64,000 bases of DNA from an uncultured Rhodobacterales bacterium. GTDB lineage: Bacteria > Pseudomonadota > Alphaproteobacteria > Rhodobacterales > Rhodobacteraceae. The position numbers and the translations under genes are program-made. The notes under the pieces are model-generated. The model saw only the letters and a list, made by a program, of their open reading frames with translations, was not told where the DNA came from and did not search any database. Of this stretch, positions 30,148-49,224 are shown piece after piece. Position 1 is the stretch's first letter, and each line of letters begins with the position of its first letter. Where the stretch lies: assembly GCA_903873585.1 (NCBI GenBank), contig CAIQOV010000049.1:1-64000 (forward strand), read 5' to 3'.

Positions 30148-30188
30148 TCAACCATATGGTTGACCTTGCTCACGCAGCCCTCAATACT
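30148..30188 (+). promoter_or_regulatory. Palindromic operator overlapping a promoter for the ArsR-type gene
   Basis: A perfect 16-base palindrome, TCAACCATATGGTTGA, occupies 30148-30163. Its right arm overlaps a -35 box TTGACC (30160-30165), followed by a 17-base spacer and -10 AATACT (30183-30188). Predicted transcription would start at about 30195, the A of the ATG. This suggests autorepression and a leaderless message. Confidence 0.7.
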
Positions 30189-30194
30189 CCCGCC

Positions 30195-30527: not shown

Positions 30528-30575
30528 CCGTTTCACCTTGGGCTAAATACGCAGGGTACAGGGCTGGCCCCGCTG

Positions 30576-32084: not shown

Positions 32085-32101
32085 CGGGCACCTTGGGCTT
32101 G

Positions 32102-32920: not shown

Positions 32921-33008
32921 GCCACGCACTCCTCTGCTTTGGCATTGCTATACGGGGGTCAAGCGCGCGTGGGAAGGGCAGACGACAAACTGCCCTCGTT
33001 TTGCAGCT

Positions 33009-33476
33009 TTAGACCTGCCCATCCGCCTGCGGATTCAACCGGATCGACGCGATGTTCAACGCCGCCGCCACTGTGACCCAAGTCAGGTACGGCACGAACA
33101 ACAGCCCCGCCACAAAGTCGATGCCAAAGAAGCACCACGTCGTGGCCGCCACACTGGCCCACAAAAAGCCCATCACGATCAGCGCCGTTTTCATGCGGTG
33201 CAGGCCGAAGAATATCGGCGACCACAGGGTGTTCAGCGCGATTTGCAATGCCCAAAAGCCCATGCCCTGCGCCGCACCGGGCAAGGGGGCCACACGCATC
33301 GCAGCCAGCGACATCACAATGTAAAGCGTGGTCCATGCCACCGGAAAAACCCAGCGCGGCGGGAACCAACTGGGCTTGGTCAGCCCTTCATACCAAGCAC
33401 CGGGCTGAAACATCGCCCCCGTGGCCGCCGCCGCCATGCACGAGGCGAGAAAGGTGAAAAACAAGCTCCAGTCCAC
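33009..33476 (-). CDS. tspO: TspO/MBR family tryptophan-rich sensory protein
   Basis: 155 residues, five helices, Trp-rich. Family landmarks include KPSWFPPRWVFPVAWTTLY and the late WVTVAAALNIASIRLN. In Rhodobacter it sits in the outer membrane, binds porphyrins and tunes pigment-gene expression in response to oxygen. GTG start with AAGGGGG upstream. It is the last gene of the crtI-crtB-tspO operon, 35 bases after crtB. In related species crtC would follow; here mipZ does. Confidence 0.93.
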   Translation of the reverse strand: MDWSLFFTFLASCMAAAATGAMFQPGAWYEGLTKPSWFPPRWVFPVAWTTLYIVMSLAAMRVAPLPGAAQGMGFWALQIALNTLWSPIFFGLHRMKTALIVMGFLWASVAATTWCFFGIDFVAGLLFVPYLTWVTVAAALNIASIRLNPQADGQV

Positions 33477-33511
33477 AGCGGCCCCCTTGGTGTGGTGACC
33501 CTTTACCTATG

Positions 33512-34537
33512 TCAGGCACCCGCGCGATCCAAGGACCGATTGGCGCGATCTTTGCTTTCCAACTGCGCAAGGGCGGCAAACAGCGCATCTGATCGGCTAA
33601 ACCGCGTGCTTTTGCGTGCGGCAGCATCGACGAGGAAGGCCACCTCGGGCTCTGGTGCGGCGTGGACGATGGCAGACACCGGCCAAACCGCCGTCGCCGC
33701 CGTTTGCAGCACCGAAAGCCCCAGCCAGCCCAGCTTTTGCCGGCGCGTGGTGCGGGCGCGGGCGGTGAAACTGTCGTAATTCAAGCGCGCAACCGCCCCA
33801 CCGATGCCAGCATAAACATGGCGCGCGGCAAAGATGCCCGGGCGGCAGGCCAAGGGTAGAACCGGCACGCCGGTGGTAGAGCGTTGATAGAACACATCGG
33901 CCTGATCCAACAGGCGCTTGGTCAAATCCCGCAGCGCAGGGTGGGCGGTGGGCGCGGCCAGAAAGGCTTTAGGGTCAAGGCCCGCCTGCGCCATCCAGTC
34001 GAGCGGTAAATACAACCGCCCTTCGCGCGCATCTTCACCCACATCACGGGCGATGTTGGTCAGTTGCATCGCAAGGCCCAAATCACAGGCCCGCGCCAAA
34101 GCGTCACCGTCGCGCACCCGCATCAGCACGCACATCATGGCGCCAACGGCACTGGCAACACGGGCGCAATAGGTCAACAGATCGGGCATGGTTTGGTATT
34201 GGCGGCCAAAGGCATCCCATGCCAGCCCTTCCAACAACGCCTCGGGCAAGGCGCGGGGCATTTCGAAATCTTGCACCACAGCAGCAAAGGCGCGGTCGGC
34301 GGGCACGTTGCGCGGGCGTCCGGCATAAACAAGGTCAAGCCTGTCGCGCAGCGCCAGAACGGCGGGGGCCTTATCGGCGCTGTCATCCACCGCATCATCC
34401 GCCAAGCGGCAAAAGGCATACAGCGCCAGCGCGGGATCACGCACCTTGGCGGGCAGCAGTTTTGACGCTGCATGAAAGGATAGCGAACCTGTGCGAATAG
34501 CCTCGCGGCAATGGTGCAGATCAGACGGGGCGATCAT
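33512..34537 (-). CDS. crtB: Phytoene synthase
   Basis: 341 residues. Condenses two geranylgeranyl diphosphates to phytoene, the first committed carotenoid step. The two aspartate-rich metal sites are LADDAVDDSAD near residue 45 and NIARDVGEDAREGRLYLP near residue 162. ATG overlaps the crtI stop as ATGA, giving coupled translation with the next enzyme of the pathway. The C-terminal tail (about 280-341) is basic and variable. Confidence 0.95.
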   Translation of the reverse strand: MIAPSDLHHCREAIRTGSLSFHAASKLLPAKVRDPALALYAFCRLADDAVDDSADKAPAVLALRDRLDLVYAGRPRNVPADRAFAAVVQDFEMPRALPEALLEGLAWDAFGRQYQTMPDLLTYCARVASAVGAMMCVLMRVRDGDALARACDLGLAMQLTNIARDVGEDAREGRLYLPLDWMAQAGLDPKAFLAAPTAHPALRDLTKRLLDQADVFYQRSTTGVPVLPLACRPGIFAARHVYAGIGGAVARLNYDSFTARARTTRRQKLGWLGLSVLQTAATAVWPVSAIVHAAPEPEVAFLVDAAARKSTRFSRSDALFAALAQLESKDRANRSLDRAGA

Positions 34538-36096
34538 TCGGCAGCCATCCTGCGCAAGGTGCGGCGGGGTGCATCGGGGACAAGCTTCCCCAACACCTCA
34601 GCACTTGAAATCACGCCCGGCAGGCCAGCACCGGGGTGGGTGCCAGCGCCCACCAGATACAGGCCCTTCGCCTCTTCCGACACGTTGTGCGGCCTAAACC
34701 ATGCCGATTGCAGAATGCGCGGTTCAATCGAAAAGCCGCTGCCATAGGGGGAAAGGTAGCGGGTTTCAAAGCTGTTGGGGGTGAAAACAAGCTGCTCGGT
34801 CAGATGGTCGCCAAGGTTGGGCAACAAGCGTTCCTCTAGTATCTGTTGCATCTTTTGGCGGTAAGGTTCAGCTTCGGTCGCCCAATCAGTGCTTCCGATC
34901 CCAAGATGGGGCACGGGCGACAGGGCATAGAACGTGTCATCCCCCAAAGGCGCAGCGGAAGGGTCGGTGACGGTGGGGCGGTGAACATACAGGCTCATGT
35001 CATCCGCCAACTTGCCGCGAATGAAGATGTCACGGATATGGTCTTTGTAGCGCGGGCCGACGACGATGGTGTGGTGGCCCACATCGGGCCATTTCAGCTT
35101 GGTGCCCTTGGTGCCGAAATACCAAACAAACAGCCCCATCGACCAGCGCTTGCGGGCCAGTTTCGCCGATGTCCAGCTTTTGCGCGGGTGGTTGCGCAGC
35201 AAGCGGTCATAGGTGTGCCCCGAATCAGCGTTGGAAACTACCACATCTGCCGCCAGCACCTGCCCATCGGTCAACCGCACGCCAGTGGCGCGGCCGTTGG
35301 ATAGCAAAATCTCGTCCACCTCGGCGTTCAGGCGCAGGGTTCCGCCTTGGTCAGCAATCACCCCCGCCATCGCCAAAGCAATCGCCGCCACCCCGCCCAT
35401 GGCATAGTGAACCCCGAATTCCTTTTCGAGGTGTGAGACAAGGATATACATCGACGTCACATGAAACGGGTCACCACCGATGAACAGCGGGTGAAACGAC
35501 AAGGCAAAGCGCAGGCGTTCGTCTTTCACCCGCGATGCGGCATGAGCATAGACTGACTTATCCGCCCGCAGCGCTGCAAAGGTCGGCAGAACCTTCACCA
35601 GATCCCACAGCTTGTGCATCGAGCGGCGGCCAAGGTCTTCAAAGCCAAAGGCATAGCGGCGTTCGGAGTCTTTCAGGAAGCGGTCATAGCCTGCCAAATC
35701 GCTGGGTGACAAACGCGCCACCTCGGCCCGCATCGCATCGGTCGATTGGCGGGCGGTGAAGTTTGATCCGTCTTGCCAACGAATTTCATAAAACGGGTCC
35801 ATCGCGCGCAGATCGACATCGCGGTCAAAATCGCGCCCACAAGCGGCCCACAGCTCGCGCAATACCTGCGGCACGGTGACGATGGTGGGCCCCAGATCAA
35901 AGCGGTAGCCGCCTTGCGAAATCGACGACCCGCGCCCGCCGGGCATATCCAGCCGATCAATCACCGTGACACGGTAGCCTTTGGCCCCAAGCCGCATTGC
36001 GGCGGCAAGGCCACCAAGGCCAGCGCCGATAACAATAGCCTCGGCCCCTGTGTCAGGGGCGTTTTGCGACGGGCGGGGTTTGGAATCTGTCAGCAT
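34534..36096 (-). CDS. crtI: Phytoene desaturase
   Basis: 520 residues. FAD-binding Rossmann motif VIGAGLGGLAAAMRL near residue 22; the bacterial phytoene-dehydrogenase C-terminal signature is near GLYLVGAGTHPGAGLPGVI. Inserts three (neurosporene) or four double bonds into phytoene, feeding CrtC/CrtD and CrtA. It faces crtA across a 117-base regulatory region containing two PpsR-type sites. A TATATC -10-like box on its strand lies at about 36104-36109, right next to the first site. Confidence 0.95.
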   Translation of the reverse strand: MLTDSKPRPSQNAPDTGAEAIVIGAGLGGLAAAMRLGAKGYRVTVIDRLDMPGGRGSSISQGGYRFDLGPTIVTVPQVLRELWAACGRDFDRDVDLRAMDPFYEIRWQDGSNFTARQSTDAMRAEVARLSPSDLAGYDRFLKDSERRYAFGFEDLGRRSMHKLWDLVKVLPTFAALRADKSVYAHAASRVKDERLRFALSFHPLFIGGDPFHVTSMYILVSHLEKEFGVHYAMGGVAAIALAMAGVIADQGGTLRLNAEVDEILLSNGRATGVRLTDGQVLAADVVVSNADSGHTYDRLLRNHPRKSWTSAKLARKRWSMGLFVWYFGTKGTKLKWPDVGHHTIVVGPRYKDHIRDIFIRGKLADDMSLYVHRPTVTDPSAAPLGDDTFYALSPVPHLGIGSTDWATEAEPYRQKMQQILEERLLPNLGDHLTEQLVFTPNSFETRYLSPYGSGFSIEPRILQSAWFRPHNVSEEAKGLYLVGAGTHPGAGLPGVISSAEVLGKLVPDAPRRTLRRMAAE

Positions 36097-36111
36097 GGGC
36101 CCACGATATAC

Positions 36112-36129
36112 TGTCTAGTTCAATTTACA
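36112..36129. promoter_or_regulatory. PpsR/CrtJ-type operator 1 (crtI-crtA)
   Basis: TGTC-N10-TACA, that is TGT-N12-ACA, the PpsR/CrtJ consensus. It lies 16 bases upstream of the crtI start, where a repressor would cover the crtI promoter. Confidence 0.85.
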
Positions 36130-36187
36130 ATACTTGCCTTTCTGTTGCAAAATTTCTCTTAATCGGCTTTGCTATGCGGGCAGATAC

Positions 36188-36205
36188 TGTCAAACTCGTC
36201 TGACA
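36188..36205. promoter_or_regulatory. PpsR/CrtJ-type operator 2 (crtA proximal)
   Basis: TGTC-N10-GACA, a perfect palindromic match to TGT-N12-ACA, ending 8 bases before the crtA start. Site centres are 76 bases apart, so cooperative looping between two tetramers is plausible. Confidence 0.9.
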
Positions 36206-36213
36206 CACTTATC

Positions 36214-36936
36214 ATGGGGCGCATCATTAACGTCGTTACGCTGTCGCTGTTTCGGTTCCCGACCCTTTCAACCCGCCTATGGGTTTTGGGGCAGATGGGG
36301 GCTGCACGATTGGCGTTTATGCGGATGCCGCAGGTTGGCTTCTGGAAGCTGTGCGGATCGGGCACGGGGCAGGGCTTCACCCCCAAGCCCAACTTCGGCG
36401 TTTGGGCGATTTTGGCCACATGGCCTGATGCCGCCACCGCACGGGCCAGCGTTGACACAGCGCCCGTCTATAAGCGCTGGCGCAGGCGCGCGGCGGAAAG
36501 TTGGACGATTTTGTTGGAACCCACCTCGGCCCGTGGCCTATGGTCGGGGCAATCGCCCTTTGTGCCGCCGCAAGATGCCTCGCCGCACGATGGACCCATC
36601 GTCGCCCTGACGCGCGCTTCGATGAAAGCATCAACCTTTCTGCGCTTTTGGCGGCGGGTGCCCGATATCTCTGCCGTCATTGGCCAAGACCCCAACGTGA
36701 TCTTCAAGATCGGCATTGGTGAGGTGCCCTTGCTGCACCAAGTCACCTTTTCCATCTGGCCAGACGCGCAAGCTATGGCCAACTTCGCACGCGGCAACGG
36801 CCCACACGGCCGCGCCATCCAAGCTGTGCGCGCCGAAAACTGGTTTTCCGAAGAGCTATACGCCCGCTTTCGCATTCTGGACGATTGGGGCAGTTGGGGC
36901 GGGCAAAGCCCCCTGTTAAAAAAGGACGCAGCATGA
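36214..36936 (+). CDS. crtA: Spheroidene monooxygenase
   Basis: 240 residues, the usual CrtA length. Adds the keto group that turns spheroidene to spheroidenone, giving the red pigments formed with oxygen. Characteristic stretches are LSLFRFPTLSTRLWVLGQMG, FWKLCGSGTGQGFTP and the C-terminal ARFRILDDWGSWGG. ATG 36214 (MGRIINVV) is chosen; 36169 would run through the second operator. Its stop overlaps the bchI start as ATGA, and it leads the crtA-bchIDO operon. Confidence 0.94.
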   Translation: MGRIINVVTLSLFRFPTLSTRLWVLGQMGAARLAFMRMPQVGFWKLCGSGTGQGFTPKPNFGVWAILATWPDAATARASVDTAPVYKRWRRRAAESWTILLEPTSARGLWSGQSPFVPPQDASPHDGPIVALTRASMKASTFLRFWRRVPDISAVIGQDPNVIFKIGIGEVPLLHQVTFSIWPDAQAMANFARGNGPHGRAIQAVRAENWFSEELYARFRILDDWGSWGGQSPLLKKDAA

Positions 36937-37937
36937 GCCAACCTTTCCCCTTCTCGGCCATCGTGGGCCAAGCGGCGATGAAGCAAGCCATGGTGCTGAC
37001 GGCGATTGATCCGGGCATTGGCGGGGTTTTGGTGTTTGGCGATAGGGGCACGGGCAAATCAACCGCCGTGCGCGCGCTTGCCGCTTTGTTGCCCGAAATC
37101 ACAGCGGTGGAAGGCTGCCCTGTCAACTCTGCCCGCATCGAAGATGTGCCGGAATGGGCGGGGCCGAAATCGGGCAAGATGATCAAACGCCCCACGCCTG
37201 TGATTGACTTGCCCTTGGGTGCCACCGAAGACCGTGTTGTGGGCGCTTTGGATATCGAACGCGCGTTGACACGCGGCGAAAAGGCCTTTGAACCGGGCCT
37301 GCTGGCGCGTGCCAATCGCGGCTATCTGTATATCGACGAAGTGAACCTGCTAGAGGATCACATCGTTGACCTGCTTTTGGATGTCGCCCAATCCGGCCAA
37401 AACGTGGTGGAACGCGAAGGCTTGTCAATCCGCCACGCCGCGCGGTTTGTGCTGGTCGGCTCTGGCAACCCCGAAGAGGGCGAGTTGCGCCCGCAATTGC
37501 TAGACCGCTTCGGCCTGTCGGTCGAGGTGGCCTCGCCCCGCGATGTGGAAACACGGGTCGAGGTGATGCGCCGCCGCGATGCCTATGAAAACGACAACGC
37601 TACTTTCATGAAGAAATGGCGCGCCAAGGATATGGCCTTGCGCAAGCAGATCATGGCCGCGCGCACCGCCTTGCCAGCGCTGAAAACCCCCGGCGCTGTG
37701 CTGCATGATTGCGCGGCTTTGTGCATCGCGCTTGGGTCTGACGGGTTGCGCGGCGAGTTGACCCTGCTGCGCGCCGCCCGTGCGATTGCGGCGTTTGACG
37801 GGGCAGATACGGTAACGCGCGGGCATCTGAAACAGGTGGCTTCCAGCGCACTAGGCCACCGCTTGCGGCGTGATCCGTTGGACGAGGCGGGCTCTGCCTC
37901 TCGTGTCGCGCGGGTGGTGGAAGAAACCCTGCCATGA
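36933..37937 (+). CDS. bchI: Magnesium chelatase subunit I (AAA+ ATPase)
   Basis: 334 residues. Walker A GDRGTGKST near residue 38, Walker B-like GYLYIDEVNLLEDH, and sensor regions typical of the chelatase AAA+ clade. Forms the ATPase ring that, with BchD and BchH, inserts Mg into protoporphyrin IX. An AAAAAAGGACG ribosome site lies before the ATG. Overlaps crtA and bchD by ATGA. Confidence 0.96.
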   Translation: MSQPFPFSAIVGQAAMKQAMVLTAIDPGIGGVLVFGDRGTGKSTAVRALAALLPEITAVEGCPVNSARIEDVPEWAGPKSGKMIKRPTPVIDLPLGATEDRVVGALDIERALTRGEKAFEPGLLARANRGYLYIDEVNLLEDHIVDLLLDVAQSGQNVVEREGLSIRHAARFVLVGSGNPEEGELRPQLLDRFGLSVEVASPRDVETRVEVMRRRDAYENDNATFMKKWRAKDMALRKQIMAARTALPALKTPGAVLHDCAALCIALGSDGLRGELTLLRAARAIAAFDGADTVTRGHLKQVASSALGHRLRRDPLDEAGSASRVARVVEETLP

Positions 37938-39598
37938 CCGATCCGCTCACGCCGTGGCAGCGCGCCGAATTGGCGTTGGCTGTGCTGGCGGTTGATCCTG
38001 CGGGGGTCAAGGGCCTGTGGCTGCGCGCGCGCAGTTCGGCGGTGCGTGATCGGGTGACGCAAGCGCTGCCCGTGGCGCGGCGCATTCATCCGGGGGTGGA
38101 TGATACCGCGCTGTTTGGCGGGGTTGATCTGGCCGCAACTTTGGCTGCGGGGAGTTTGGTTTCAAGCGCAGGGCTTTTGGCCACCGTTGCTCCGGTAATT
38201 CTCACAATGGCCGAACGCTGCCCCCAAGGCCTATCCGCCCGCCTGTCGCGCTGGCTGGATGAGGCGGGGCCGTGCCTGATCGCGTTGGACGAGGGGGCAG
38301 AGCCGGAAGAAAGCCTGCCTTCGGGATTGGCGGATCGGTTGGGCTTGTTCTTAGACCTGACAGAGGTTGGCTATTCTGACAGCCAAGCCGTGACCCTGTC
38401 GCCCGAAGCCATCGCCACAGCCCGCGCGCGGTTGGCCAGCACCACCTTGCCCAAGACAGCGCTGGAAAGCCTAACGACCGTCGCCACCGCGATGGGCATC
38501 GCTTCGCTTCGTGCCCCGATGCTGGCGCTGGCCGTGGCGCGCGCACTGGCGGCGTGGCGGGGTGAAGATCAGGCGTCAGATGACACCCTGCGCCATGCCG
38601 CTGAACTAACGCTGGCCCATCGCGGCGACCTGCCGCCGCAGGCTGATGAAAATGAAGCACCTCCGCCGCCCGAACCGCCAGACGCGCCCGAACAAGACGC
38701 GCAAGATCAAGAGCAAAGCCAGCAAGACCGCCTGCCCGATGACATCTTGCTAGAGGCCATCCGCGCCGCCCTGCCTGCTGACCTATTGGCCCGCCTTGCC
38801 GCTGGCAAGGCTGCCCGCAGCGCCAAGGGGTCGGGCAGCGGGGCTGTTCGCAAGGGCAACCATCGGGGGCGGCCCCTGCCCTCTCGGCCCGGTACGCCCG
38901 GTTCGGGCAAGCGGATTGATCTGGTCGCCACCCTGCGCGCTGCGGCACCTTGGCAACCGCTGCGCCGCCGCTCGGTTGACGCGACACGGCTGGAAATTCG
39001 GCAAAGCGATTTGCGGTTGAAGCGGTATCAGGAAACATCCGACAGGGTGCTGATCTTTGCCGTCGACGCTTCGGGGTCTTCGGCGCTGGCGCGTCTGGGA
39101 GAGGCGAAGGGCGCGGTGGAGTTGCTGCTGGCCCAAGCCTATGCGCGCCGCGACCACGTGGCACTGATCGCCTTTCGCGGCACTGCGGCGGAACTGATGC
39201 TGCCGCCAACACGCTCGTTAGTGCAAACAAAACGGCGGCTGGCATCTTTGCCCGGCGGCGGCGGTACGCCGCTTGCGGCGGGGTTGCAGATGGCGTTTGA
39301 ACTGGCTGGCCAAACCAAAGCGCGGGGCATGACGCCCACGGTGGCCCTGCTAACCGACGGGCGCGGCAACATCGCGCTGGATGGCAGCGCAAATAGGGAA
39401 ATGGCCGAGGCCGATAGCCTGAAACTGGCCCGTGCTCTGCGTGCCACGGGCATTCCTGCGCTGGTGATTGACATCGCCACCCGCCCCCAACCCGCCCTGA
39501 AGCGCTTGGCCGAGGTGCTGGATGCCCCCTACCTTCCCCTGCCCCGCGCCGATGCGCAGCGCCTGTCTGCCGCCCTGCAAGCGGCGCTGGGCGACTGA
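37934..39598 (+). CDS. bchD: Magnesium chelatase subunit D
   Basis: 554 residues. The N-terminal AAA+ half has degenerate Walker motifs. A Pro- and acid-rich linker at about 238-268 (NEAPPPPEPPDAPEQ) is followed by a C-terminal von Willebrand A domain with the MIDAS motif DASGSSA. It bridges BchI rings to the BchH subunit. Overlaps bchI by ATGA and bchO by a single base (TGATG). Confidence 0.95.
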   Translation: MTDPLTPWQRAELALAVLAVDPAGVKGLWLRARSSAVRDRVTQALPVARRIHPGVDDTALFGGVDLAATLAAGSLVSSAGLLATVAPVILTMAERCPQGLSARLSRWLDEAGPCLIALDEGAEPEESLPSGLADRLGLFLDLTEVGYSDSQAVTLSPEAIATARARLASTTLPKTALESLTTVATAMGIASLRAPMLALAVARALAAWRGEDQASDDTLRHAAELTLAHRGDLPPQADENEAPPPPEPPDAPEQDAQDQEQSQQDRLPDDILLEAIRAALPADLLARLAAGKAARSAKGSGSGAVRKGNHRGRPLPSRPGTPGSGKRIDLVATLRAAAPWQPLRRRSVDATRLEIRQSDLRLKRYQETSDRVLIFAVDASGSSALARLGEAKGAVELLLAQAYARRDHVALIAFRGTAAELMLPPTRSLVQTKRRLASLPGGGGTPLAAGLQMAFELAGQTKARGMTPTVALLTDGRGNIALDGSANREMAEADSLKLARALRATGIPALVIDIATRPQPALKRLAEVLDAPYLPLPRADAQRLSAALQAALGD

Positions 39599-40470
39599 TG
39601 CGCGCGCCTGTCATTCCTGCCTTTTGGCCCTATCGTGACGCTTCGCGCCACATCGCGTGCAAGCCGCATCTTTGGCATGTGCAGGACGTGGGCGCAGGCC
39701 CGTTGGTGCTGCTGCTGCACGGCGCGGGGGGCGCGACCCACAGCTTTCGCCACCTGATCCCGCTTCTGGCCGCGCATTACCGCGTCATCGCGCTTGATCT
39801 GCCCGGTCAGGGCTTTAGCGTTTTGGGCGCACGGGCGCGTTGCGGGTTAGACCCTGTGTCAGACGACATTGCAGCCCTTATCCGCCAAGAAGGCTGGCAG
39901 CCCTTGGCCATCATCGGCCATTCTGCGGGTGGGGCGATTGCGCAGCGCCTTGCGGAACTGCTGCCCCTCAAAGCGGTGGTCGGCATCAATTCCGCCCTAG
40001 GCGCGTTTGAAGGGCTTGAAGGTTGGCTTTTCCCCGTCATGGCCAAAGCCTTGGCGCTCACGCCCTTTGTGCCAAGCCTGTTTAGCAAACTCGCCGGAAC
40101 GCCCACGCAGGTGCGCCAGTTGATCGCTACCACGGGCAGCGGGTTAGACGACGAAGGGCTGGCCCTGTATCTGCACCTGATGCAAAAGCCCGCCCATGTC
40201 AGCGCCACTTTGGCGATGATGGCGCAATGGAACCTGACGCCGTTTTTGCGGCGGATGACGAACCAAACCACACCCACTTTGCTGATCACCGCCAGCAAAG
40301 ACCGCGCCGTGCCTGCCAGCGTATCGCAACGCTCGGCCCAAACCATGCCGGATGCGACTTGGCTGGATATTCCCGATTACGGGCATTTGGTGCATGAAGA
40401 GGCGGCAGCTTTGGTCGCCGCCCCGATCTTGGCCTTTCTGGCCCGCTTTACCGCATCAGGTGAAGCATGA
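39598..40470 (+). CDS. bchO: Alpha/beta hydrolase associated with Mg chelatase
   Basis: 290 residues. Alpha/beta-hydrolase fold with oxyanion LLLHGAGGATHSF, nucleophile GHSAGG, and a late Asp in SKDRAVP and His in DYGHLVHEE. Found with bchID in purple bacteria; its substrate is unproven. Last gene of the crtA-bchIDO run. Its stop lies 5 bases from the convergent hemC stop. Confidence 0.92.
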   Translation: MRAPVIPAFWPYRDASRHIACKPHLWHVQDVGAGPLVLLLHGAGGATHSFRHLIPLLAAHYRVIALDLPGQGFSVLGARARCGLDPVSDDIAALIRQEGWQPLAIIGHSAGGAIAQRLAELLPLKAVVGINSALGAFEGLEGWLFPVMAKALALTPFVPSLFSKLAGTPTQVRQLIATTGSGLDDEGLALYLHLMQKPAHVSATLAMMAQWNLTPFLRRMTNQTTPTLLITASKDRAVPASVSQRSAQTMPDATWLDIPDYGHLVHEEAAALVAAPILAFLARFTASGEA

Positions 40471-40475
40471 GCGGA

Positions 40476-41411
40476 TCAGTCAAAAAACCCCGGCCCTGCT
40501 TTGGCCAACAGCTGATCGGCCAGTGCCGCGCCAATCGCTGCGGCATCGGCCACGGGGCCGCGCAACTCTCCGGCTATCACCCTTGTGCCATCAGGGCGCA
40601 AGATTTCGCCGCGCAGCCACAGGGTCGCACCCTCCAGCACCGCAAGCCCCGCAATCGGGGTTTCGCAAGAGCCATCCAGCCGCGCCAAGAACCCGCGCTC
40701 GGCGGCCAGTTGCTGGCCGGTGGGCGTGTGGTGGATGGCGGCGAGCATCGCTTCGGCGCGCGGGTCGGCCAAGCGGCGCTCTACCCCGATGGCACCTTGG
40801 GCGACGGCGGGCAGCATTTCGGTCACGGCAATCGGCTTGGCGTGCTGCGCCATGCCCAAGCGGTTCAGCCCCGCCATGGCCAAAAAGGTCGCCACAGCCA
40901 CGCCGTCTTCCAGCTTTTTCATACGGGTTTGCACATTGCCGCGAAACTCGACCAGCTTCAGGTCGGGCCTGCGATGCGCCAACTGCGCGCGGCGGCGCAG
41001 GCTAGAGGACCCAACCGTGGCCCCCTGCGGCAGATCCATCAGCCCCGCCACGGCGGGCGAGACAAAGCCATCGCGCACATCTTCGCGCGGCAGGTAGCAA
41101 TCCAAGATCAGGCCCGCAGGCTGCACCGTGGGCATATCTTTCATCGAATGCACGGCGATATCGATGCCGCCGTCCAACAGGGCCTCTTCAATCTCGCGGG
41201 TGAACAGGCCCTTGCCGCCAATCTCTTTCAGCGCCTTGTCCAGAATCTGGTCGCCCGTGACTTTGATCACCACGATCTCAAACGCCGCTTCGGGCAAGGA
41301 ATAGGCGGCCATAAGACAGCGTCGCACCTCGTGCGCCTGCCAAAGCGCAAGCGGAGAGCCGCGCGTGCCGATTTTGAAAGGTTGGGCGGGGGTGGGAAGT
41401 GCGTATGTCAT
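40476..41411 (-). CDS. hemC: Hydroxymethylbilane synthase (porphobilinogen deaminase)
   Basis: 311 residues. Opens KIGTRGSPLALWQAHEVR, has KGLFTREIEEALLDG and the dipyrromethane-cofactor cysteine in LDGSCETPIAG. Polymerises four porphobilinogens to hydroxymethylbilane, the precursor shared by heme and bacteriochlorophyll. Divergent from hemE over 85 bases containing a perfect PpsR-type site. The gene is directly next to bchO. Confidence 0.96.
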   Translation of the reverse strand: MTYALPTPAQPFKIGTRGSPLALWQAHEVRRCLMAAYSLPEAAFEIVVIKVTGDQILDKALKEIGGKGLFTREIEEALLDGGIDIAVHSMKDMPTVQPAGLILDCYLPREDVRDGFVSPAVAGLMDLPQGATVGSSSLRRRAQLAHRRPDLKLVEFRGNVQTRMKKLEDGVAVATFLAMAGLNRLGMAQHAKPIAVTEMLPAVAQGAIGVERRLADPRAEAMLAAIHHTPTGQQLAAERGFLARLDGSCETPIAGLAVLEGATLWLRGEILRPDGTRVIAGELRGPVADAAAIGAALADQLLAKAGPGFFD

Positions 41412-41427
41412 GCCATAGGCATATCGC

Positions 41428-41445
41428 TGTCATTCTGCCCTGACA
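41428..41445. promoter_or_regulatory. PpsR/CrtJ-type operator between hemC and hemE
   Basis: TGTC-N10-GACA, a perfect palindromic TGT-N12-ACA, centred in the hemC-hemE divergent region, 16 bases from the hemC start and 51 bases from the hemE start. hemC and hemE are reported PpsR targets in Rhodobacter sphaeroides, so this fits co-repression with pigment genes. Confidence 0.88.
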
Positions 41446-41496
41446 ACTGCCACAACGTGATGTTAAACAGATCTCATAGAACTGACGGAGCCTGAC

Positions 41497-42525
41497 ATGT
41501 CGAATAAGACCATCCTGCGCGCCTTGGCTGGCGAAGTCCTTCCCACCCCGCCGATCTGGATGATGCGGCAGGCGGGGCGTTATTTGCCGGAATACCGCGC
41601 CACACGCGCACAGGCAGGGGATTTTCTGGCGCTGTGCTACAATTCCGAATTGGCGGCAGAGGTGACGTTGCAACCGATCCGCCGCTATGGGTTTGACGCA
41701 GCGATTTTGTTTGCCGACATCTTGCTGCTGCCACAAGCGATGGGGGCGGACCTGTGGTTTGAAACGGGCGAAGGGCCGCGCCTGTCAACCATCACCGCGA
41801 TGGCGGGGGTTCAGGCGCTAAAGCCGAAAGAAGATATTCACGACAAGCTGGCCCCCATCTATGAAACCGTGCGCATTCTGGCCCGCGAATTGCCGCGCGA
41901 AACCACGCTGATCGGCTTTGCCGGCGCGCCGTGGACGGTGGCGACCTATATGATCGCGGGGCGCGGCAGCAAAGATCAGGGTGCTGCCCATGCGCTGAAA
42001 TTGGCAGACCGCGCCACGTTTCAAGCGTTGATTGATGCGATCACAGTGGCGACGGTTGAATATCTGTCGATGCAGGTTCTGGCTGGCGCTGAAGTGATCA
42101 AGCTGTTTGACAGTTGGGCTGGCAGCCTGAAGGGCCAAGATTTCATCGACTTTGCGCTGACCCCCACCAAGCAGATCATCCATGCCCTGAAAGCCCGCCA
42201 CCCCGGCCTGCCCATCATCGCCTTCCCGCGAGAGGCGGGGCAGGCCTATGTCGGCTTTGCCAATGCAACTGGCGCAAATTGCGTGGCTTTGGACAATTCC
42301 GTCAGCCCCGAATGGGCCGCGACCCATGTGCAGGTTGATGGCTGCGTTCAGGGCAATCTGGCACCCGAACATATGGTGACGGGTGGGGCCGATTTGGTGC
42401 GCGAAACCCGCCGAGTGGTGGATGCCTTCAAAGGCGGGGCGCATATTTTCAACCTTGGGCACGGCATCACCCCAGATGCCAACCCTGACAACGTGTCGCG
42501 GATGATCGAAGCGGTGCGCGGTTAA
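41497..42525 (+). CDS. hemE: Uroporphyrinogen decarboxylase
   Basis: 342 residues. Signatures [16 protein letters not shown] near residue 20 and [14 protein letters not shown] near residue 140 are diagnostic. Decarboxylates uroporphyrinogen III to coproporphyrinogen III, on the path common to heme and bacteriochlorophyll. A GGAG ribosome site is upstream. Its stop overlaps that of the convergent hemY gene within TTAA. Confidence 0.96.
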
Positions 42526-43961
42526 TTCGCGCGCCGTCCGATGGCTTCCAAATCAATCAGTTTGGGGGCGTCTGGGGTTTGCTTGGGGGCTGATACAATC
42601 ACCGGCAACATTTCGGCTGCGGTGGCACTTGGGCCGGTGGTTTCGACCGGTGCGCGCCAGCTAAGGGTATCAAACCCCTGACAATTGTCGCAAATCGGCC
42701 CCCAAGCCGAATGCACGGCTTGGCACTTATCGCAGCACCATTGCGGGCCGTGCGGCGCTGTTAGCGCTTTGGCCAGCCAAGCGCGCACCGTGGCCTCATC
42801 ACCACCTTCGCCCCGCTCAATCGCGGCCATAATCGCCAGCGAACGGCGGGTGGGCTGGGTGGTGGCCAAATCGCCCAAGGCGCGGCGGGCGGCGGGGAAA
42901 TCTTCGGCGGCAATCGACAGTTCGGCCAGCAGTTGCTTGGTTTCCGCATCGTCAGGATGCAGGGCTGTCAGCAGACGAAAGCGTTTGATCCGCGCGTCGG
43001 GGGTTTCTTCGGGCTCTACCTCGGCAAAGGCGGCGGCGAGGTCGGGGTGGGGCATCGCCTCCCACGCTTTTTTCAGCACGCGGGTGGCGTTCTTTTTGTC
43101 GCCACGGTTCAAGTAGCTGCGCGCGGCCATGGCGGCGGCGGGAATCAGGTCGGGCGATTGCTTGTTAGCGGCGATGGCGGCTTCTTGGGCGTCAATGCTG
43201 GCGGTTTCGTCAAACACGCCCTTGGCCTCTTGCAAGGCAAGCACGGCATCACGGCGGCGGAACAGGTCTTTGGGCAAAGCGCCAGATTTGGCCTGCGCGT
43301 TAAGCGTGGCGCGCGCGCCTTTCCAATCGGCAGCGCCCGATTGCAGTTTCAGCAAAACATCCTGCGAGTCGGCGTGGCGGGGTTTCAGTTCAAACGCCTT
43401 CTCCGCCAGCTTCAGCGCGGTATCGGTATCGCCTTCGGCCAGCTTTTGCTTCAGCAGGCCACGAATGCCCACAAAGCGGGTGCGCGGGTCGGCGAGCAGG
43501 GCCTTAAACGCCTCCGCCGCGCGGGTGGTATCGCCTGACAGGTCGGCGGCTTGGGCGATCAGCAGGTTGGTCAGTTCTGGGCGGTCAAGATAGCCTTGCG
43601 CCCGCTGCGCTTTGATCAGGGCCAAGCGCCCTTCCCCCGCCGCCAAGGCCATCATCCCATCGGCCAACGCCTGAAAGCCGCGCTGTTCACGGTTGCGGTC
43701 AAGGTAGCGCGAAATCGCGGTTTCATCCCCGTTGAGAAAGCGCAGAACGGCAAAAAGCAGGCCGATCAGCTTTAAAATGGCCCAAACGACCGCCAAGGCC
43801 ACCAGCCCCGCGATGGCGATTTGCAGCGGGTGCAGCGTAAGTTCCCACCCAGCAAACGACAGGCGCAGCGCGGTGTCCGCTTGCGCGAGCAAGGAGAAAC
43901 CAAAGGCCACCGCCAAAAGGACAGCTAGAAAAACAACGATGCGCAGAAGGGACCAGATCAT
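42522..43961 (-). CDS. hemY: HemY-family TPR membrane protein with C-terminal zinc-ribbon-like motif
   Basis: 479 residues. Two N-terminal helices ([38 protein letters not shown]) are followed by TPR-like helical repeats and a C-terminal cysteine cluster, WCCDKCQ with C-x2-C, then ICDNC, which looks like a rubredoxin-type zinc ribbon. This HemY is the scaffold-like protein of porphyrin operons, not protoporphyrinogen oxidase. It begins one base after the mic60 stop and is co-transcribed with mic60 and probably hemD. Confidence 0.85.
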
Positions 43962-43962
43962 C

Positions 43963-44970
43963 TTATCCCGCCTTGGCCATAAGGGCAGCCAGTGCGGCCT
44001 GCGCATCCAGCCGCAATTGCGCCTGCGCGCGCCAATCGGCCAGCGCATCTTGCGCGGGGGCGGGCAGCGTGGCGATTTCGACCAGCGCTTGCGCCACATC
44101 ACCCGCCGAAAGCGCCGCTTCCGCCCGCGATAGGATAGCGTCAGGATCAGGGCCTTCGCGCGGGGTAAGTGAGCGCACGCCAACTTGGGTGCGCAGGAAA
44201 TTGCCCACCCGTTCCGACCAGCTTTCGCCCATATTGGCCCGCAAAGCGGCATCAAGTGCTGCGCGGGCGGAGTCGGGGAAGGTCGCTTGCAAGGCTTGCA
44301 GGCTGGGCAGGCCAGCGGTGGCATTGTCAGCCAAGACAGGCGCAAGATCAGGGGCTGACAGCGCCGCCAAGGCAGAGGGATAGGGCGCGCCACTGTCCAA
44401 AGCGGCGGCGATTTGGCCCAAGGCGGCACGGGTCAGGGTGGCGGCGGCTTGGGCTTGGGCGGTTTGTTCGATGGCGGTCAGTTTCGCTTCGGTCGCTTGC
44501 ACCTTGGCATCCAGATCAGCCTGCACTTGGGCCGACATCACCGCAGCGCCGTCGGTCTTGATCGCAGCCACCTCGGCGCGCAACTGGGCAAGTGCTGCGG
44601 TGTCGGTTCCAGCGGGCATAGGTCTGGATTCAAGTGCTGTTAGGCGGGCTTCCAGCACCGCGACTTGACCAGCATCAGCTTGCGGCGCGGGGGCGGTTTC
44701 AAGATTGGCCAACCGCGCATCGGCCTTTTGCAGGTCGGCCTGCAACGCCACAACTTGATCCGACAGCGCCGCGACTTGGGTTTGCAGCGTCACCACCGAC
44801 GCCATCGGCCAGCCGTTGGGCACATATTGCGCCACACCGTAGCCCGCCGCTGCCGCAAGTGCGCCGCCCAGCAAAGGCCAGATCACCCAAGCCCATCCCA
44901 TGCGCTTTGGGCGGGGGGCGGGCTGAGTGCTTAGGGGCTGTGTGGTCCCTGTATCATCGGGGGTGGCCAT
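43963..44970 (-). CDS. Mitofilin/Mic60-like inner-membrane protein
   Basis: 335 residues. A cytoplasmic Pro-rich head, one membrane helix (VIWPLLGGALAAAAGYGVAQY), a long Ala/Gln-rich coiled coil in the periplasm (about 60-190), and a C-terminal mitofilin signature region (VGNFLRTQVGVRSLTPREG, then AEAALSAGDVAQALVE). Alphaproteobacterial Mic60 bends membrane and is linked to intracytoplasmic membrane formation in phototrophs. The start at 44970 (MATPDDTG) has AAGGAT upstream. Gene order hemD-mic60-hemY matches other alphaproteobacteria. Confidence 0.85.
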   Translation of the reverse strand: MATPDDTGTTQPLSTQPAPRPKRMGWAWVIWPLLGGALAAAAGYGVAQYVPNGWPMASVVTLQTQVAALSDQVVALQADLQKADARLANLETAPAPQADAGQVAVLEARLTALESRPMPAGTDTAALAQLRAEVAAIKTDGAAVMSAQVQADLDAKVQATEAKLTAIEQTAQAQAAATLTRAALGQIAAALDSGAPYPSALAALSAPDLAPVLADNATAGLPSLQALQATFPDSARAALDAALRANMGESWSERVGNFLRTQVGVRSLTPREGPDPDAILSRAEAALSAGDVAQALVEIATLPAPAQDALADWRAQAQLRLDAQAALAALMAKAG

Positions 44971-45025
44971 GGCTGATCCTTCGCACTGTCGTTGCTGTTG
45001 AAGGTAATCGCGCAGGGGGGTTAGT

Positions 45026-45727
45026 TCAATGACCGTGCAGCCGCGCCAGCACGGCATCCAGCATCGAAGGCGCATCAGGATGGGCGGCGATGGTGGGCGG
45101 GGTGGGGCAAAAGGCGGCGGCTTGGGCGACTGTTTGGCTGATGGCAACGATAGTGAGCGGGGCCTGTGTGGGAAGGCGTAGCCACGCCGCCCCAAGGATT
45201 TCAGCGCTTCTGGGCGAAAAAAGGGGGATAATGACGGGGGCATGGCCTGATAACAGGGCCACCGCCTGCGCGCTTAACGGCTGCACCTCTTGCGCGTAAA
45301 CCACGCGCTCTTGGGTGGAAATGCCAGCGGCAGAAAGCCGCTGAGCCAGATCGCCCCGCGCCTCACGTCCGCGCAGATGGATCAGGTTTTGGGGCTTTTC
45401 GCGCAGAATCAGCGCCAAAAGCGCCTCGGCATCGCCTTGGGCGGATTGCACACGAAAGCCCGCCTGCCGTGCCACCTGCGCGGTGCGGTCGCCCACGCAA
45501 TAGGCCAAGTCGGGCAGGTGCGCGCGCAGACGGCTCGCCGCCTCTGCCCCCGTTTGCGAGGTTAGGATGACGCCGTGCAACAGTCCTTCGGGCAGCGTCA
45601 CGGCGTGAAAAACCGTCGCCATCAAGGGTGACACGACCACCCGCACCTCTGGCACCCGTGCAAGCAAGCTTTGCGCAAAGCTGGCAGATTGCGCAGCGGG
45701 GCGGGTTAGCAGGACGGTGGGGGCCAT
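45026..45727 (-). CDS. hemD: Uroporphyrinogen-III synthase
   Basis: 233 residues. Poorly conserved family, identified by the opening [17 protein letters not shown], the internal [11 protein letters not shown] (TSxxG) and the late [14 protein letters not shown], plus operon context with mic60 and hemY. Cyclises hydroxymethylbilane with D-ring inversion. The start could also be 45742 (MPAQSMAP). Divergent from tsaD by about 78 bases. Confidence 0.85.
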
Positions 45728-45805
45728 GGATTGTGCGGGCATGGGCAAGATGCTACCTCGGACATGGGTCAGGGGCAATCTGGCCTGATCTTGGCGCGGG
45801 GCGCA

Positions 45806-46903
45806 ATGGGCAGGACTTTAACCTTTCTGGGCATCGAAAGCAGTTGCGACGACACGGCCGCCGCCGTGGTGCGCCGCCATGCCGATGGGCGCGCAGAGGT
45901 GCTGAGTTCGCAGGTTGAAGGGCAATCGGCCCTGCACGCCGCTTTCGGTGGTGTGGTGCCCGAAATCGCCGCCCGTGCCCATGCCGAGCGGTTGGATCAC
46001 TGTGTTGAGCGCGCCTTGGCCGAGGCGGGGCTTACGCTGGCCGATCTGGATGCCGTGGCTGTGACGGCTGGGCCTGGGCTGATTGGCGGCGTGTTGTCAG
46101 GCGTGATGCTGGCCAAGGGAATTGCGGCGGCAACGGGCTTGCCGCTGCTGGGGGTGAACCACCTAGCGGGCCACGCGCTGACACCGCGCCTGACGGATGG
46201 CGTCAGCTTTCCCTATCTGATGCTGCTGGTGTCGGGCGGGCATTGCCAGTTTCTGATCGTGCGCGCGGCGGATCAGTTCGAACGCCTTGGCGGCACGATC
46301 GACGATGCGCCGGGCGAAGCGTTTGACAAAGTGGCCAAGCTGTTGGCCCTGCCGCAACCGGGTGGCCCTTGGGTAGAGGCTGAGGCGCTAAAGGGTGACG
46401 CCAAGCGCTTTGCCCTGCCACGTCCGCTGCTGGATCGGGCGGGGTGCGATATGTCATTCTCGGGCCTGAAAACCGCTGTGCTAAGGGCGCGGGACGGGGT
46501 GATTGCGGTTAAGGGCGGCATCACGGTGCAAGACCGCGCTGATCTGTGCGCGGGGTTTCAGGCGGCGGTGGCGGCGGTGCTGGCTGAAAAAACCCGCCGC
46601 GCATTAGAGGTTTACTTGGCCCTGTCGCCTGATGTGCCGACCTTGGCCGTGGCAGGCGGGGTGGCGGCGAACGCGGCCATTCGTGGCGCGTTGCAAGGCG
46701 TTTGCGAAGGCTTAGGGGTGACATTCACCGCCCCGCCGCTGCGGCTGTGCACCGACAACGCGGCGATGATCGCTTGGGCGGGGATAGAGCGGCATTTGAC
46801 GGGGGGAACGGTTGAGGCTGATCTGACCGCCCGCCCGCGCTGGCCGTTGGACAGTGCGGCAGCACCCCTGATCGGGTCGGGAAAAAAGGGCGCAAAAGGA
46901 TGA
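45806..46903 (+). CDS. tsaD: tRNA N6-adenosine threonylcarbamoyltransferase
   Basis: 365 residues. ASKHA-fold enzyme that transfers threonylcarbamoyl to A37 of ANN-decoding tRNAs. Motifs: [10 protein letters not shown] near the N-terminus, [15 protein letters not shown] (metal-binding His region), [19 protein letters not shown] and late [10 protein letters not shown]. The start at 45806 (MGRTLTFLG) is chosen; upstream in-frame codons overlap hemD's promoter. Works with TsaE, encoded 9 kb away as a fusion. First of a four-gene operon. Confidence 0.95.
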
Positions 46904-47853
46904 TCGGGGTCGCAGGCGCAGGGGCTTTTGGCACGGCGCTGGCAGTGGCTTTGGCGGCGGCGGGGCGGCAAGTGACGCTTTGGGCGCGCGATGCGGATCA
47001 TGTGGCGGCGATGGCGGAAAGCCGCAGCAATGCGGCGCGGTTGGATGGGGTGAAGTTTCCGGCAAGCTTGGGCGTGACGGGCGACCTGCGCGATTTGATT
47101 AAGGCGGAAGCGGTTCTGCTGGCTTTGCCGATGCAGGCCTTGGCGGGGTTTTTGGGCCAGAACGGCAGTGTCTTAAACGGCCTGCCGCTGGTGGTGTGCT
47201 GCAAAGGCATTGACCTTGCCACCCTGCGCGGACCCACGGCGATTGTGCGCGACCTTTGCCCGCAAAGCGCTGTGTCGATCCTGACAGGCCCCAGCTTTGC
47301 CGCCGACATCGCGCGCGGCTTGCCCACGGCGCTGACGCTGGCGGGACAGGGTGTTGAGGCGTTGCAGCCCTTGCTGTCGACCGCCACCTTGCGCCTGTAT
47401 CGCAGCGATGATGCGGTGGGGGCGGAACTGGGTGGGGCGTTGAAGAACGTGGTCGCCATTGCCGCAGGCGTAGTGTTGGGTGCGGGTTTGGGGGAATCGG
47501 CGCGCGCAGCGCTGATCACGCGCGGCTTTGCCGAGATGCAGCGCTTTGCATTGTTGCAAGGCGCTGCCAGCGATACTTTGCTGGGGCTGTCAGGCTTGGG
47601 GGATTTGATCCTTACCTGCACCTCCACCCAATCGCGCAACCTGCGCTATGGCATGGCGCTTGGATCAGGTGCTGCGTTTGATCGCGCTATCACTGTTGAA
47701 GGGGTAGCCACGGCGCAAGCGATAGAACAGATTGCACAAAACCAGTCGCTTGATATGCCGGTGTCGACGATGGTGGCCCGCTTAATAGGCCAAGACATAA
47801 CCCTGGATCAGGCCATTCACAGCCTGATGTCCCGCCCGCTACGAAAGGAATGA
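46900..47853 (+). CDS. gpsA: Glycerol-3-phosphate dehydrogenase [NAD(P)+]
   Basis: 317 residues. N-terminal [16 protein letters not shown] is the nucleotide-binding Rossmann motif; catalytic Lys is in [13 protein letters not shown], and [14 protein letters not shown] is the family signature. Reduces dihydroxyacetone phosphate to sn-glycerol 3-phosphate for phospholipid synthesis. Overlaps tsaD by ATGA. Confidence 0.96.
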
Positions 47854-47854
47854 A

Positions 47855-48127
47855 ATGCGCGTTGCTTTGATCTGTATTGATAAACCTAACTCGCTAGAGG
47901 TGCGCATGGCCAACCGGCCTGCCCATGTGGATCACCTGAACGCATCAGGCATCGTGGAGCTGGCGGGGCCGTTTTTGGATGCCCAAGGCCAGATGTGCGG
48001 GTCGATGATTGTGCTGTCGGTTGACACAATCGAACAGGCGCAGGCTTGGGTGGCGGAAGATGCCTATACCCAAGCGGGGCTGTTCGCATCGGTTGACATC
48101 CGCGAATGGAAAAAGGTGATCGGATGA
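47855..48127 (+). CDS. YciI-family protein
   Basis: 90 residues, ferredoxin-like dimeric fold. HVDHLNASGIVELAGPF contains the conserved His near the pocket and the late TQAGLFASVDIREWKKV matches the YciI ending. Enzymatic role not established. Starts one base after gpsA and overlaps the next gene by ATGA. Confidence 0.9.
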   Translation: MRVALICIDKPNSLEVRMANRPAHVDHLNASGIVELAGPFLDAQGQMCGSMIVLSVDTIEQAQAWVAEDAYTQAGLFASVDIREWKKVIG

Positions 48128-48543
48128 GCTTTTGGCTGTTCAAATCCGAACCCAACGCGATCAGTTTTCAAAGCCTGTGGGACAAGCTGCCCGCAGATGA
48201 GGAATGGCACGGCATTCGCAACTACGGCGCGCGCAACAACATGCGGCTGATGAAGCTGGGCGAGCGGGGGTTTTTCTACCACTCCAACATCGGCAGAGAG
48301 GTTGTGGGGATTGTCGAAGTCACCCGCCTGTCGCAGCAAGACAGCAAAACCGACGATCCGCGTTGGGATTGCGTGTGCTTTCGCCCTGTGGCGCGCCTGC
48401 TGCGGCCCGTGACGCTAGAGATGTGCAAGGTGCAGCCCGGCTTGGAAAAGATGGTGCTCGTCAACAACTCGCGCCTGTCGGTGCAGCCTGTGTCGGATGA
48501 CGAATGGCGCATCATCTGCGATCTGGGTGGGGTGGCCCCATAA
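48124..48543 (+). CDS. EVE-domain protein
   Basis: 139 residues. The EVE/PUA-like fold opens FWLFKSEPN and has GIRNYGARNNMRLMKLGERG and YHSNI, the pocket that binds modified bases in related proteins. Stand-alone EVE proteins near metabolic genes are common in alphaproteobacteria; a link to restriction is possible but not shown. Last gene of the tsaD operon. Confidence 0.9.
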   Translation: MSFWLFKSEPNAISFQSLWDKLPADEEWHGIRNYGARNNMRLMKLGERGFFYHSNIGREVVGIVEVTRLSQQDSKTDDPRWDCVCFRPVARLLRPVTLEMCKVQPGLEKMVLVNNSRLSVQPVSDDEWRIICDLGGVAP

Positions 48544-48606
48544 ATTCCTGTTGCCTGCACGGTTGGGGGCGTTAGCCTTGCCCCACCCTGCAACAGGAGG
48601 AATGGG

Positions 48607-49008
48607 ATGCAGTTTCTGGTGGTGATTTTGGCGGCCTTTGTCGCCTATGCCTTTGGCGCTTTTTGGTACACCTATATGTCAAAGCCGTGGATGGTTGCGG
48701 CGGGCATTCCGATGGATGCCAACGGCAAGCCGACGCGCAATGGCGGGGCGATGCCCTTTGTGATCGGCTTTGTGGCGACGCTGCTTGTGGCAGGCATGAT
48801 GCGGCACATCTTTGTGCAAAGCCATCTGGGCACGGTCACGCTGGGTGCTATGGGCGGCTTTGGGATCGGGGCGTTCTTGATCACGCCTTGGGTCATGATG
48901 AACTACAGCTTTGCAGGGCGGCCGTTTAAGCTGACGCTGATTGACGGCACCAATTCGGTCGTGGGTTGCACGCTGATGGGCATCATCTTCGGGGCTTTCG
49001 GGGTTTGA
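48607..49008 (+). CDS. DUF1761-family membrane protein
   Basis: 133 residues with four helices. Opens VVILAAFVAYAFGAFWYTYMSKPWM, the hallmark of DUF1761, and has an internal WVMMNYSFAGRP. Function unknown. AACAGGAGGA gives a very strong ribosome site. No plus-strand terminator was found; the hairpin after it has its T-run only on the other strand. Confidence 0.85.
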   Translation: MQFLVVILAAFVAYAFGAFWYTYMSKPWMVAAGIPMDANGKPTRNGGAMPFVIGFVATLLVAGMMRHIFVQSHLGTVTLGAMGGFGIGAFLITPWVMMNYSFAGRPFKLTLIDGTNSVVGCTLMGIIFGAFGV

Positions 49009-49106
49009 AAAAAATGAGGGGCCCCTACCCCTAGGAACCCCTCATCTACCCCACGCGCTCCCAGCACCGCACGTGTTCTATGAAAGGTTCAGGACGTAAT
49101 GCCCTT
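49008..49106 (-). ncRNA. Candidate small RNA with own promoter and terminator
   Basis: On the minus strand a promoter, -35 TTGCCA (49136-49141), 17-base spacer, -10 TATGGT (49113-49118), predicts a start near 49106. The RNA then has a stem CACGTGC/GCGCGTG (one G-U) around GGTGCTGGGA, and ends in GATGAGGGG ... CCCCTCAT followed by seven T, a textbook intrinsic terminator. Total about 99 nt. It does not match tmRNA, 6S, SRP or RNase P. A 23-codon frame exists, but its ATG lies in the -10 box, so I favour a non-coding RNA. Confidence 0.6.
49014..49045 (-). terminator. Intrinsic terminator of the candidate small RNA
   Basis: ATGAGGGG (49014-49021) pairs with CCCCTCAT (49038-49045). On the minus strand the stem is followed by TTTTTTT; on the plus strand there is no T-run. 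Confidence 0.8.
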
Positions 49107-49177
49107 GGATTGACCATAGCCGAATCGGGGGGTCTTGGCAAAGACGAAGCCCTGAAAACTTTACACAAAGCCCATGC

Positions 49178-49203
49178 AAAAGCCCGCCGAGTGGCGGGCT
49201 TTT
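49178..49203 (-). terminator. ahcY terminator
   Basis: AAAAGCCCGCC / GGCGGGCTTTT around a 4-base loop. T-run present on both strands; sits 21 bases past the ahcY stop. Confidence 0.92.
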
Positions 49204-49224
49204 GTTTGGTTGAGGGATTGCAAA

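Follow-up and report, generated by a model that had tools for sequence, protein, structure and literature searches.

The window, i. e. the complete stretch of 64,000 nucleotides that was analysed, carries a series of crt, bch and hem genes, which were identified with NCBIfam profiles, as well as PpsR-type operators in two of the intergenic spacers. The following features are relevant here:

33512..34537, minus strand: crtB, phytoene synthase (NF045921, 536 bits)
34534..36096, minus strand: crtI, phytoene desaturase family (TIGR02734, 638.4 bits)
36112..36129, no strand assigned: PpsR-type operator TGTCTAGTTCAATTTACA on the crtI side of the crtI/crtA spacer (matrix score 19.51)
36188..36205, no strand assigned: PpsR-type operator TGTCAAACTCGTCTGACA on the crtA side of the crtI/crtA spacer (matrix score 20.76, the top score in the window)
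36214..36936, plus strand: crtA, spheroidene monooxygenase (NF045923, 383 bits; the start is placed at the likely ATG)
36933..37937, plus strand: bchI, Mg-chelatase subunit I (TIGR02030, 547.5 bits; the start is an ATG near the beginning of the match)
37934..39598, plus strand: bchD, Mg-chelatase subunit D (NF009943, 700.1 bits)
39598..40470, plus strand: bchO (TIGR03056, 349.9 bits, cut-off 172.55)
40476..41411, minus strand: hemC, hydroxymethylbilane synthase (TIGR00212, 329.5 bits, cut-off 164)
41418..41446, minus strand: candidate hemC promoter read from the sequence (-35 TTGTCA at 41446-41441, 17-bp spacer, -10 TATGCC at 41423-41418)
41428..41445, no strand assigned: PpsR/CrtJ-type operator TGTCATTCTGCCCTGACA in the hemC/hemE spacer (matrix rank 3 in the window)
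41497..42525, plus strand: hemE, uroporphyrinogen decarboxylase (TIGR01464, 409.7 bits, cut-off 302.95)
42522..43961, minus strand: hemY-like TPR gene (TIGR00540, 90 bits, under its cut-off of 142)

The genes bchO and hemC are convergent. With the bchO stop codon at 40468-40470 and the end of hemC at 40476, the 5 bp between the two stop codons that had been noticed in the initial annotation of this DNA are confirmed. The same annotation proposed that the carotenoid, Mg-chelatase and common tetrapyrrole genes form "one contiguous PpsR-controlled unit". The genes, however, differ in orientation: some transcripts diverge and others converge, bchO and hemC being tail to tail, which argues against such a unit. 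On the other side of the spacer, hemE and the hemY-like TPR gene also lie tail to tail, with overlapping stop codons; in the region 42522-46903, hemE is followed by hemY-like, hemX-like and hemD-like genes and then by tsaD.

The operator in the hemC/hemE spacer

The hemC/hemE spacer comprises 85 bp (41412-41496) between the hemC ATG at 41411 on the minus strand and the hemE ATG at 41497. Its predicted promoter region contains the 18-mer TGTCATTCTGCCCTGACA, which fits the palindrome TGT-N12-ACA of PpsR/CrtJ operators in the form TGTc-N10-gACA, exactly at the coordinates that had been given for TGTC-N10-GACA between these divergent genes. On its own, the bare pattern carries little weight. In the window, TGT-N12-ACA matches 11 times with 7.9 matches expected, and 17 of 100 shuffles reach 11. 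A genome-wide scan for TGTC-N10-GACA (3.2 Mb), which the initial annotation had suggested as a check, revealed 75 copies, compared with 35 for the reversed pattern, yet a motif this common is weak evidence when taken alone; these counts were hence dropped as stand-alone evidence. Upon shuffling of the 85-bp spacer itself, TGT-N12-ACA emerged in 3489 and TGTC-N10-GACA in 227 of 200000 sequences, and the occurrence of TGTCATTCTGCCCTGACA inside this short spacer thus renders a chance origin unlikely. CrtJ and PpsR are reported to display cooperativity at paired sites. Assignment to this two-site cooperative promoter class was considered and rejected, as the hemC/hemE spacer contains a single TGT-N12-ACA and a second operator was not found there. 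An Rfam scan of 30000-50000 returned zero families at the gathering score.

For a matrix search, 13 of the 19 entries of the PpsR ChIP-seq table of Rhodobacter sphaeroides (PMC4344238) were used, omitting six rows without a photosynthesis gene. The sites at 36188, 36112 and 41428 are the top three in the window, in line with the three operators that had been counted in this stretch. Three window sites score at least as high as 41428, whereas 30 Markov sequences contain on average 0.13 such sites, and after removal of the R. sphaeroides hemE site from the matrix, 41428 still scores 16.03 and retains rank 3 in the window. The site at 36112 is similar to TGTCTAGTCAGGTTTACA, which ChIP-seq located at crtIB/crtA of R. 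sphaeroides (PMC4344238), while the right half of TGTCAAACTCGTCTGACA, CTGACA, is also the -35 element of a consensus promoter hit at 36200 for crtA. In comparison with known PpsR/CrtJ operators of crtI/crtA, the window thus has two sites in the crtI/crtA spacer in addition to the one in the hemC/hemE spacer.

The TGT-N12-ACA consensus agrees with the R. sphaeroides table, and PpsR regulation of this spacer is already known from that organism (PMC4344238). There, ChIP-seq located a hemE site, TGTCCATTTGCCCTGACA, with a weak enrichment of 1.7 and an expression change of -2.23, and Table 2 of that study assigns this site to hemE only (PMC4344238). The counterparts lie at the same gene and are nearly the same over 20 bp, with TGTCCATTTGCCCTGACAAC at hemE (RSP_0680) of R. 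(Cereibacter) sphaeroides and TGTCATTCTGCCCTGACAAC in the window (PMC4344238). One of the genomes compared here (L182) carries the exact R. sphaeroides hemE 18-mer in its hemC/hemE spacer, 17 bp from the hemC ATG. The statement that hemC and hemE are both reported PpsR targets in R. sphaeroides therefore stands for hemE (PMC4344238), while the source that lists hemC together with hemE does so for PrrA, which binds the hemC/hemE region (PMC4263372). In contrast to the window, the R. sphaeroides peaks of crtA-bchIDO (RSP_0272-5) and hemE (RSP_0680) are far apart on chromosome 1, at ~1.996 and ~2.424 Mb (PMC4344238).

The absence of a ppsR gene had been named as an observation that would speak against the operator. 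The genome encodes a full-length PpsR (TIGR02040, 499.9 bits, cut-off 275.4; G000:C26:119517-120836), the sole match over the cut-off, and together with the matrix rank, the R. sphaeroides counterpart (PMC4344238) and the co-occurrence with ppsR in 75 relatives described below, this gives good support to the assignment as a PpsR-type operator. The same contig carries pufM (C26:140381), with bchG, bchN, bchZ, bchC, crtC and crtD near ppsR, and further strong matrix matches. The main photosynthesis cluster hence resides on a contig other than that of the window. One of the matrix matches, C26:121855, is identical over 18 bp to the R. sphaeroides ppaA site (PMC4344238). The gene beside ppsR gave no family assignment at E 1e-40 and may be named ppaA by analogy with the R. 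sphaeroides table (PMC4344238). Within 55 kb of C26, zero matches to crtB, crtA and bchIDO were obtained, and the only crtI match, at 27% identity, is the gene for CrtD.

Co-occurrence with ppsR and position relative to hemC

The distribution of the operator was analysed in two samples. For the first, 80 hemE loci were fetched, from which four without a nearby hemC and one whose genome lay outside the search (L073) were removed to give 75; two further loci with partial hemC were left out of the hemC-hemE tree, which thus has 73 tips. The ppsR status of the relatives was entered by hand from profile-search results, and their hemC and hemE starts were extrapolated by alignment to the window proteins. 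TGT-N12-ACA is present in the hemC/hemE spacer of 21 of the 26 ppsR-positive loci and rare in the ppsR-negative ones (2 of 49; Fisher p 6.6e-12), while other gap lengths (4-11 and 13-20) occur in at most 5 of the 26. The association also persists in a tree-aware control, in which the site was simulated independently of ppsR: the observed phi of 0.78 was reached in 0 of 5000 simulations on the 73 tips. For the second sample, the best 30 hemC matches of the 75 family genomes with bchO and hemC were taken, of which four had already been fetched and 26 were scored, 24 of them with divergent hemE. The operator was found in 19 of these 24 and other gaps in at most three; two of the site-bearing genomes had already been part of the first sample, which leaves 17 of 22 new ones.

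Exceptions occur in both directions. Five of the 26 ppsR-positive loci have no perfect site, one of which (L050) is one base short; four of these five genomes contain pufM, the exception being a Paracoccus. The latter, Paracoccus sp. 2205BS29-5 (L072, G124), encodes a full-length PpsR (376.3 bits) without a pufM match and without a hemC/hemE operator. Conversely, TGT-N12-ACA occurs in the spacers of L051 and L071 though ppsR and pufM were found in neither genome, and draft genomes may miss ppsR, as exemplified by G013 without ppsR and pufM at 86% completeness.

The operator keeps its distance to hemC rather than to hemE. Between its start and the hemC ATG, 16-18 bp are found in 16 of 23 site-bearing loci of the first sample and in 15 of 19 of the second (32-66 bp in the remaining seven and four, respectively). 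In contrast, hemE of the first sample can be as close as 45 bp or as far away as 360 bp. In two Sulfitobacter plasmids, it is again located 16 bp from the hemC start. Another genome of the same genus (G009; L135, C9 10701-11710) has lost hemE from its place next to hemC and the hemY-like gene and encodes a different hemE, with 76% identity, on another contig; the operator is still located 16 bp from the hemC start codon.

This geometry can be related to a putative hemC promoter. TGTCATTCTGCCCTGACA covers the candidate hemC -35 element and most of the -35/-10 spacer, and the predicted start is at or beside the ATG. In the 49 ppsR-negative spacers, ACA peaks at the place of the right half (24 at offsets 28-32 and 15 at offsets 30-34, with an all-offset mean of 5.4), and TGT at the place of the left half is found in just one (mean 1.6). 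Because ACA is kept at the one place and TGT is rare at the other, the right half of the operator may double as the hemC -35 element, with the remainder filling the spacer to the -10 element. However, 25 of the 49 spacers have no ACA at offsets 28-32, and the right half is therefore not generally kept without ppsR. The proposed -10 sequence TATGCC is weak, and a consensus promoter scan gave zero matches in the hemC/hemE spacer of the window.

Alternatively, the operator could serve hemE alone, with hemC as a bystander. Table 2 of the R. sphaeroides study indeed lists hemE, with its -2.23 change (PMC4344238). Moreover, 67 of the 75 relatives harbor TTGACA in the spacer, mostly 34-75 bp before hemE; this motif is absent from the window spacer, where CTGACA in the right half of TGTCATTCTGCCCTGACA is a possible substitute for the hemE -35 element. 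A site dedicated to hemE would, however, be difficult to reconcile with the mostly fixed distance to hemC and the variable one to hemE, and with the operator of G009 that stays beside hemC without hemE, and we regard this explanation as unlikely. An operator shared by hemC and hemE agrees better with these data.

The junction of bchO and hemC

Within the genus (16 genomes), bchO scores over its cut-off in 11 genomes, and the bchO-hemC junction is present in four (G000, which is the window genome, G005, G013 and G015). These form one clade with a support of 1.0, in which the bchO of the window shares 81-93% identity with its three counterparts. The hemC neighbours were read in G001, G002, G006, G007, G009 and G011; in G003, the genes lie on different contigs, and G010 gave no hemC match. 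G004 cannot be assessed for the junction, as its hemE begins at base 28 of a contig, followed by the hemY-like gene, and neither hemC nor bchO was recovered. Around the 80 fetched hemE loci (at most 8 kb per side), the crt, bch, hemD, hemX-like, hemY-like, tsaD and gpsA proteins of the window gave zero matches.

The wider family was surveyed with 199 genomes, 77 of which contain bchO and 75 of these also hemC. The two genes are adjacent in one, the window's own. In four more, hemC lies 20.6-31.3 kb from bchO, twice by way of a second hemC copy; in 14, >190 kb of the same contig separate the two genes, and in 56 they are on different contigs, where contig breaks could hide a few adjacencies (the 19 same-contig pairs were chosen by eye). 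The second hemC copies (G230:C1:2598897-2599832 and G194:C25:193406-194281), 27 and 31 kb from bchO, are possibly dedicated to photosynthesis. A synteny survey, as called for by the initial annotation, thus confines the junction to one small clade, with four of 16 genus genomes and one of 75 sampled family genomes. The proposal that the contiguity makes flux control local is not supported either, given that PpsR acts in trans and that most sampled phototrophic relatives have the operator without bchO next to hemC-hemE.

The arrangement can be described as a lineage-specific variant, for which looser precedents exist in print (PMC6739100, PMC10949492). Photosynthesis clusters with hemE-hemC-hemA have been reported on Sulfitobacter plasmids (PMC6739100). 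Two such plasmids (NZ_CP081121.1 and NC_019364.1) resemble the window in that divergent hemE-hemC, with TGT-N12-ACA 16 bp from hemC, is part of the photosynthesis cluster. Unlike in the window, ParB-like, AAA ATPase and hypothetical genes separate bchO from hemE in NZ_CP081121.1, and hemC adjoins hemA. A Pseudorhodobacter turbinis record was set aside because it lacks annotation. Another bacterium, Sediminicoccus sp. KRV36, contains a hemC duplicate in its photosynthesis cluster, for which the cited text reports PpsR sites at bchC and puc only (PMC10949492). Among open-licence full texts, no paper stating a bchO-hemC adjacency was found.

As for the origin of the junction, the crtA-bchIDO block of G009 shares a contig with pufM and ppsR, whereas the 55 kb of C26 in the window genome yielded no match to crtB, crtA or bchIDO. 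According to the simplest account, a crtBI-crtA-bchIDO module was detached from the main cluster and, as it appears, moved beside hemCE in this clade, a direction that is suggested by the comparison of these genomes.

Conceivably, the linkage is itself functional, i. e. the adjacency was selected for a coupling of Mg-chelatase and tetrapyrrole trunk expression, either by convergent transcription or by a local occupancy of PpsR that both share. Three operators within ~5.3 kb and the closely spaced stop codons of bchO and hemC would fit this idea, as would the retention of the junction in all four clade genomes although bchO has diverged, the four family genomes with hemC within 20.6-31.3 kb of bchO, and hemE-hemC in the Sulfitobacter plasmid clusters. 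Yet, convergent genes are expected to interfere rather than to reinforce each other, the adjacency is restricted to a single genome of the 75 sampled, and most sampled phototrophs retain the operator without the linkage. We hence consider a selected linkage quite improbable and return to an operator that would regulate hemC and hemE regardless of where bchO is encoded.

Proposed regulation and its origin

In our view, TGTCATTCTGCCCTGACA is very probably a genuine single PpsR operator of a shared hemC-hemE promoter region that would mediate repression in trans, and the closeness of bchO is the outcome of a separate rearrangement. According to this model, oxidised PpsR, produced from ppsR in the main cluster on another contig, would bind TGTCATTCTGCCCTGACA in trans and cover the hemC promoter and probably also that of hemE. 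Under oxygen, it would then modestly repress hemC and probably hemE, which would lower the common tetrapyrrole trunk together with the crt and bch genes. Modest control is expected because there is one operator and because the effect in R. sphaeroides is weak (PMC4344238). The crtBI-crtA-bchIDO module would have docked beside a hemCE pair already bearing the operator, and the linkage would thus not be the source of the regulation. That the palindrome arose by chance or belongs to another regulator is barely credible. The bare pattern is common, and R. sphaeroides PrrA also binds between hemC and hemE (PMC4263372), but the link to ppsR, seen in the first sample and upheld by the tree-aware control, the high frequency among the bchO-containing genomes of the second sample and the near-identity to the R. 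sphaeroides ChIP-seq site (PMC4344238) all speak against it.

With TGTCATTCTGCCCTGACA as a PpsR operator, its position right beside pigment genes is the only unusual feature, and the additions to the known regulation are modest, namely the hemC-anchored operator geometry and the bchO-hemC docking. The site is a conserved switch by which an oxygen-sensing repressor probably governs an early step that the syntheses of heme and bacteriochlorophyll have in common. The surveys point to a PpsR control of the tetrapyrrole trunk that is widely conserved across the family, centred on hemC and independent of gene linkage. Presence or absence of the operator along with ppsR may serve as a simple marker that phototrophic regulation exists or once existed. 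The docking of bchO at hemC represents a case of photosynthesis-cluster fragmentation that could be used to examine if clustering becomes less necessary once genes are co-regulated in trans.

More tentatively, and with somewhat less than even confidence, we propose that the operator evolved atop the hemC core promoter, its right half serving as the -35 element and its left half being a dispensable addition that comes and goes with ppsR. In this scenario, hemC rather than hemE would be the ancestral PpsR target in the Rhodobacteraceae, the cluster fragment would have docked later, and G011 would have lost phototrophy. In the latter genome, which is 100% complete, ppsR and pufM were not found. 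In the tree, the split between G011 and the group of L014, L018 and the window clade, which bears on a possible common origin of the bchO-hemC junctions in G011 and the window, has a support of 0.062 (0.965 for the wider clade), and L014 and L018 carry a different gene family beside hemC.

On contig G011:C66 (L143), a truncated bchO 3' end (691-945, model positions 194-273) lies ~100 bp from hemC (1984-1052), and the hemC/hemE spacer retains TGTCGTCTTGCGCTGACA. Remnant and operator look like a relic of lost phototrophy. The bchO remnant is located ~260 bp after a tRNA-Phe gene (354-429).
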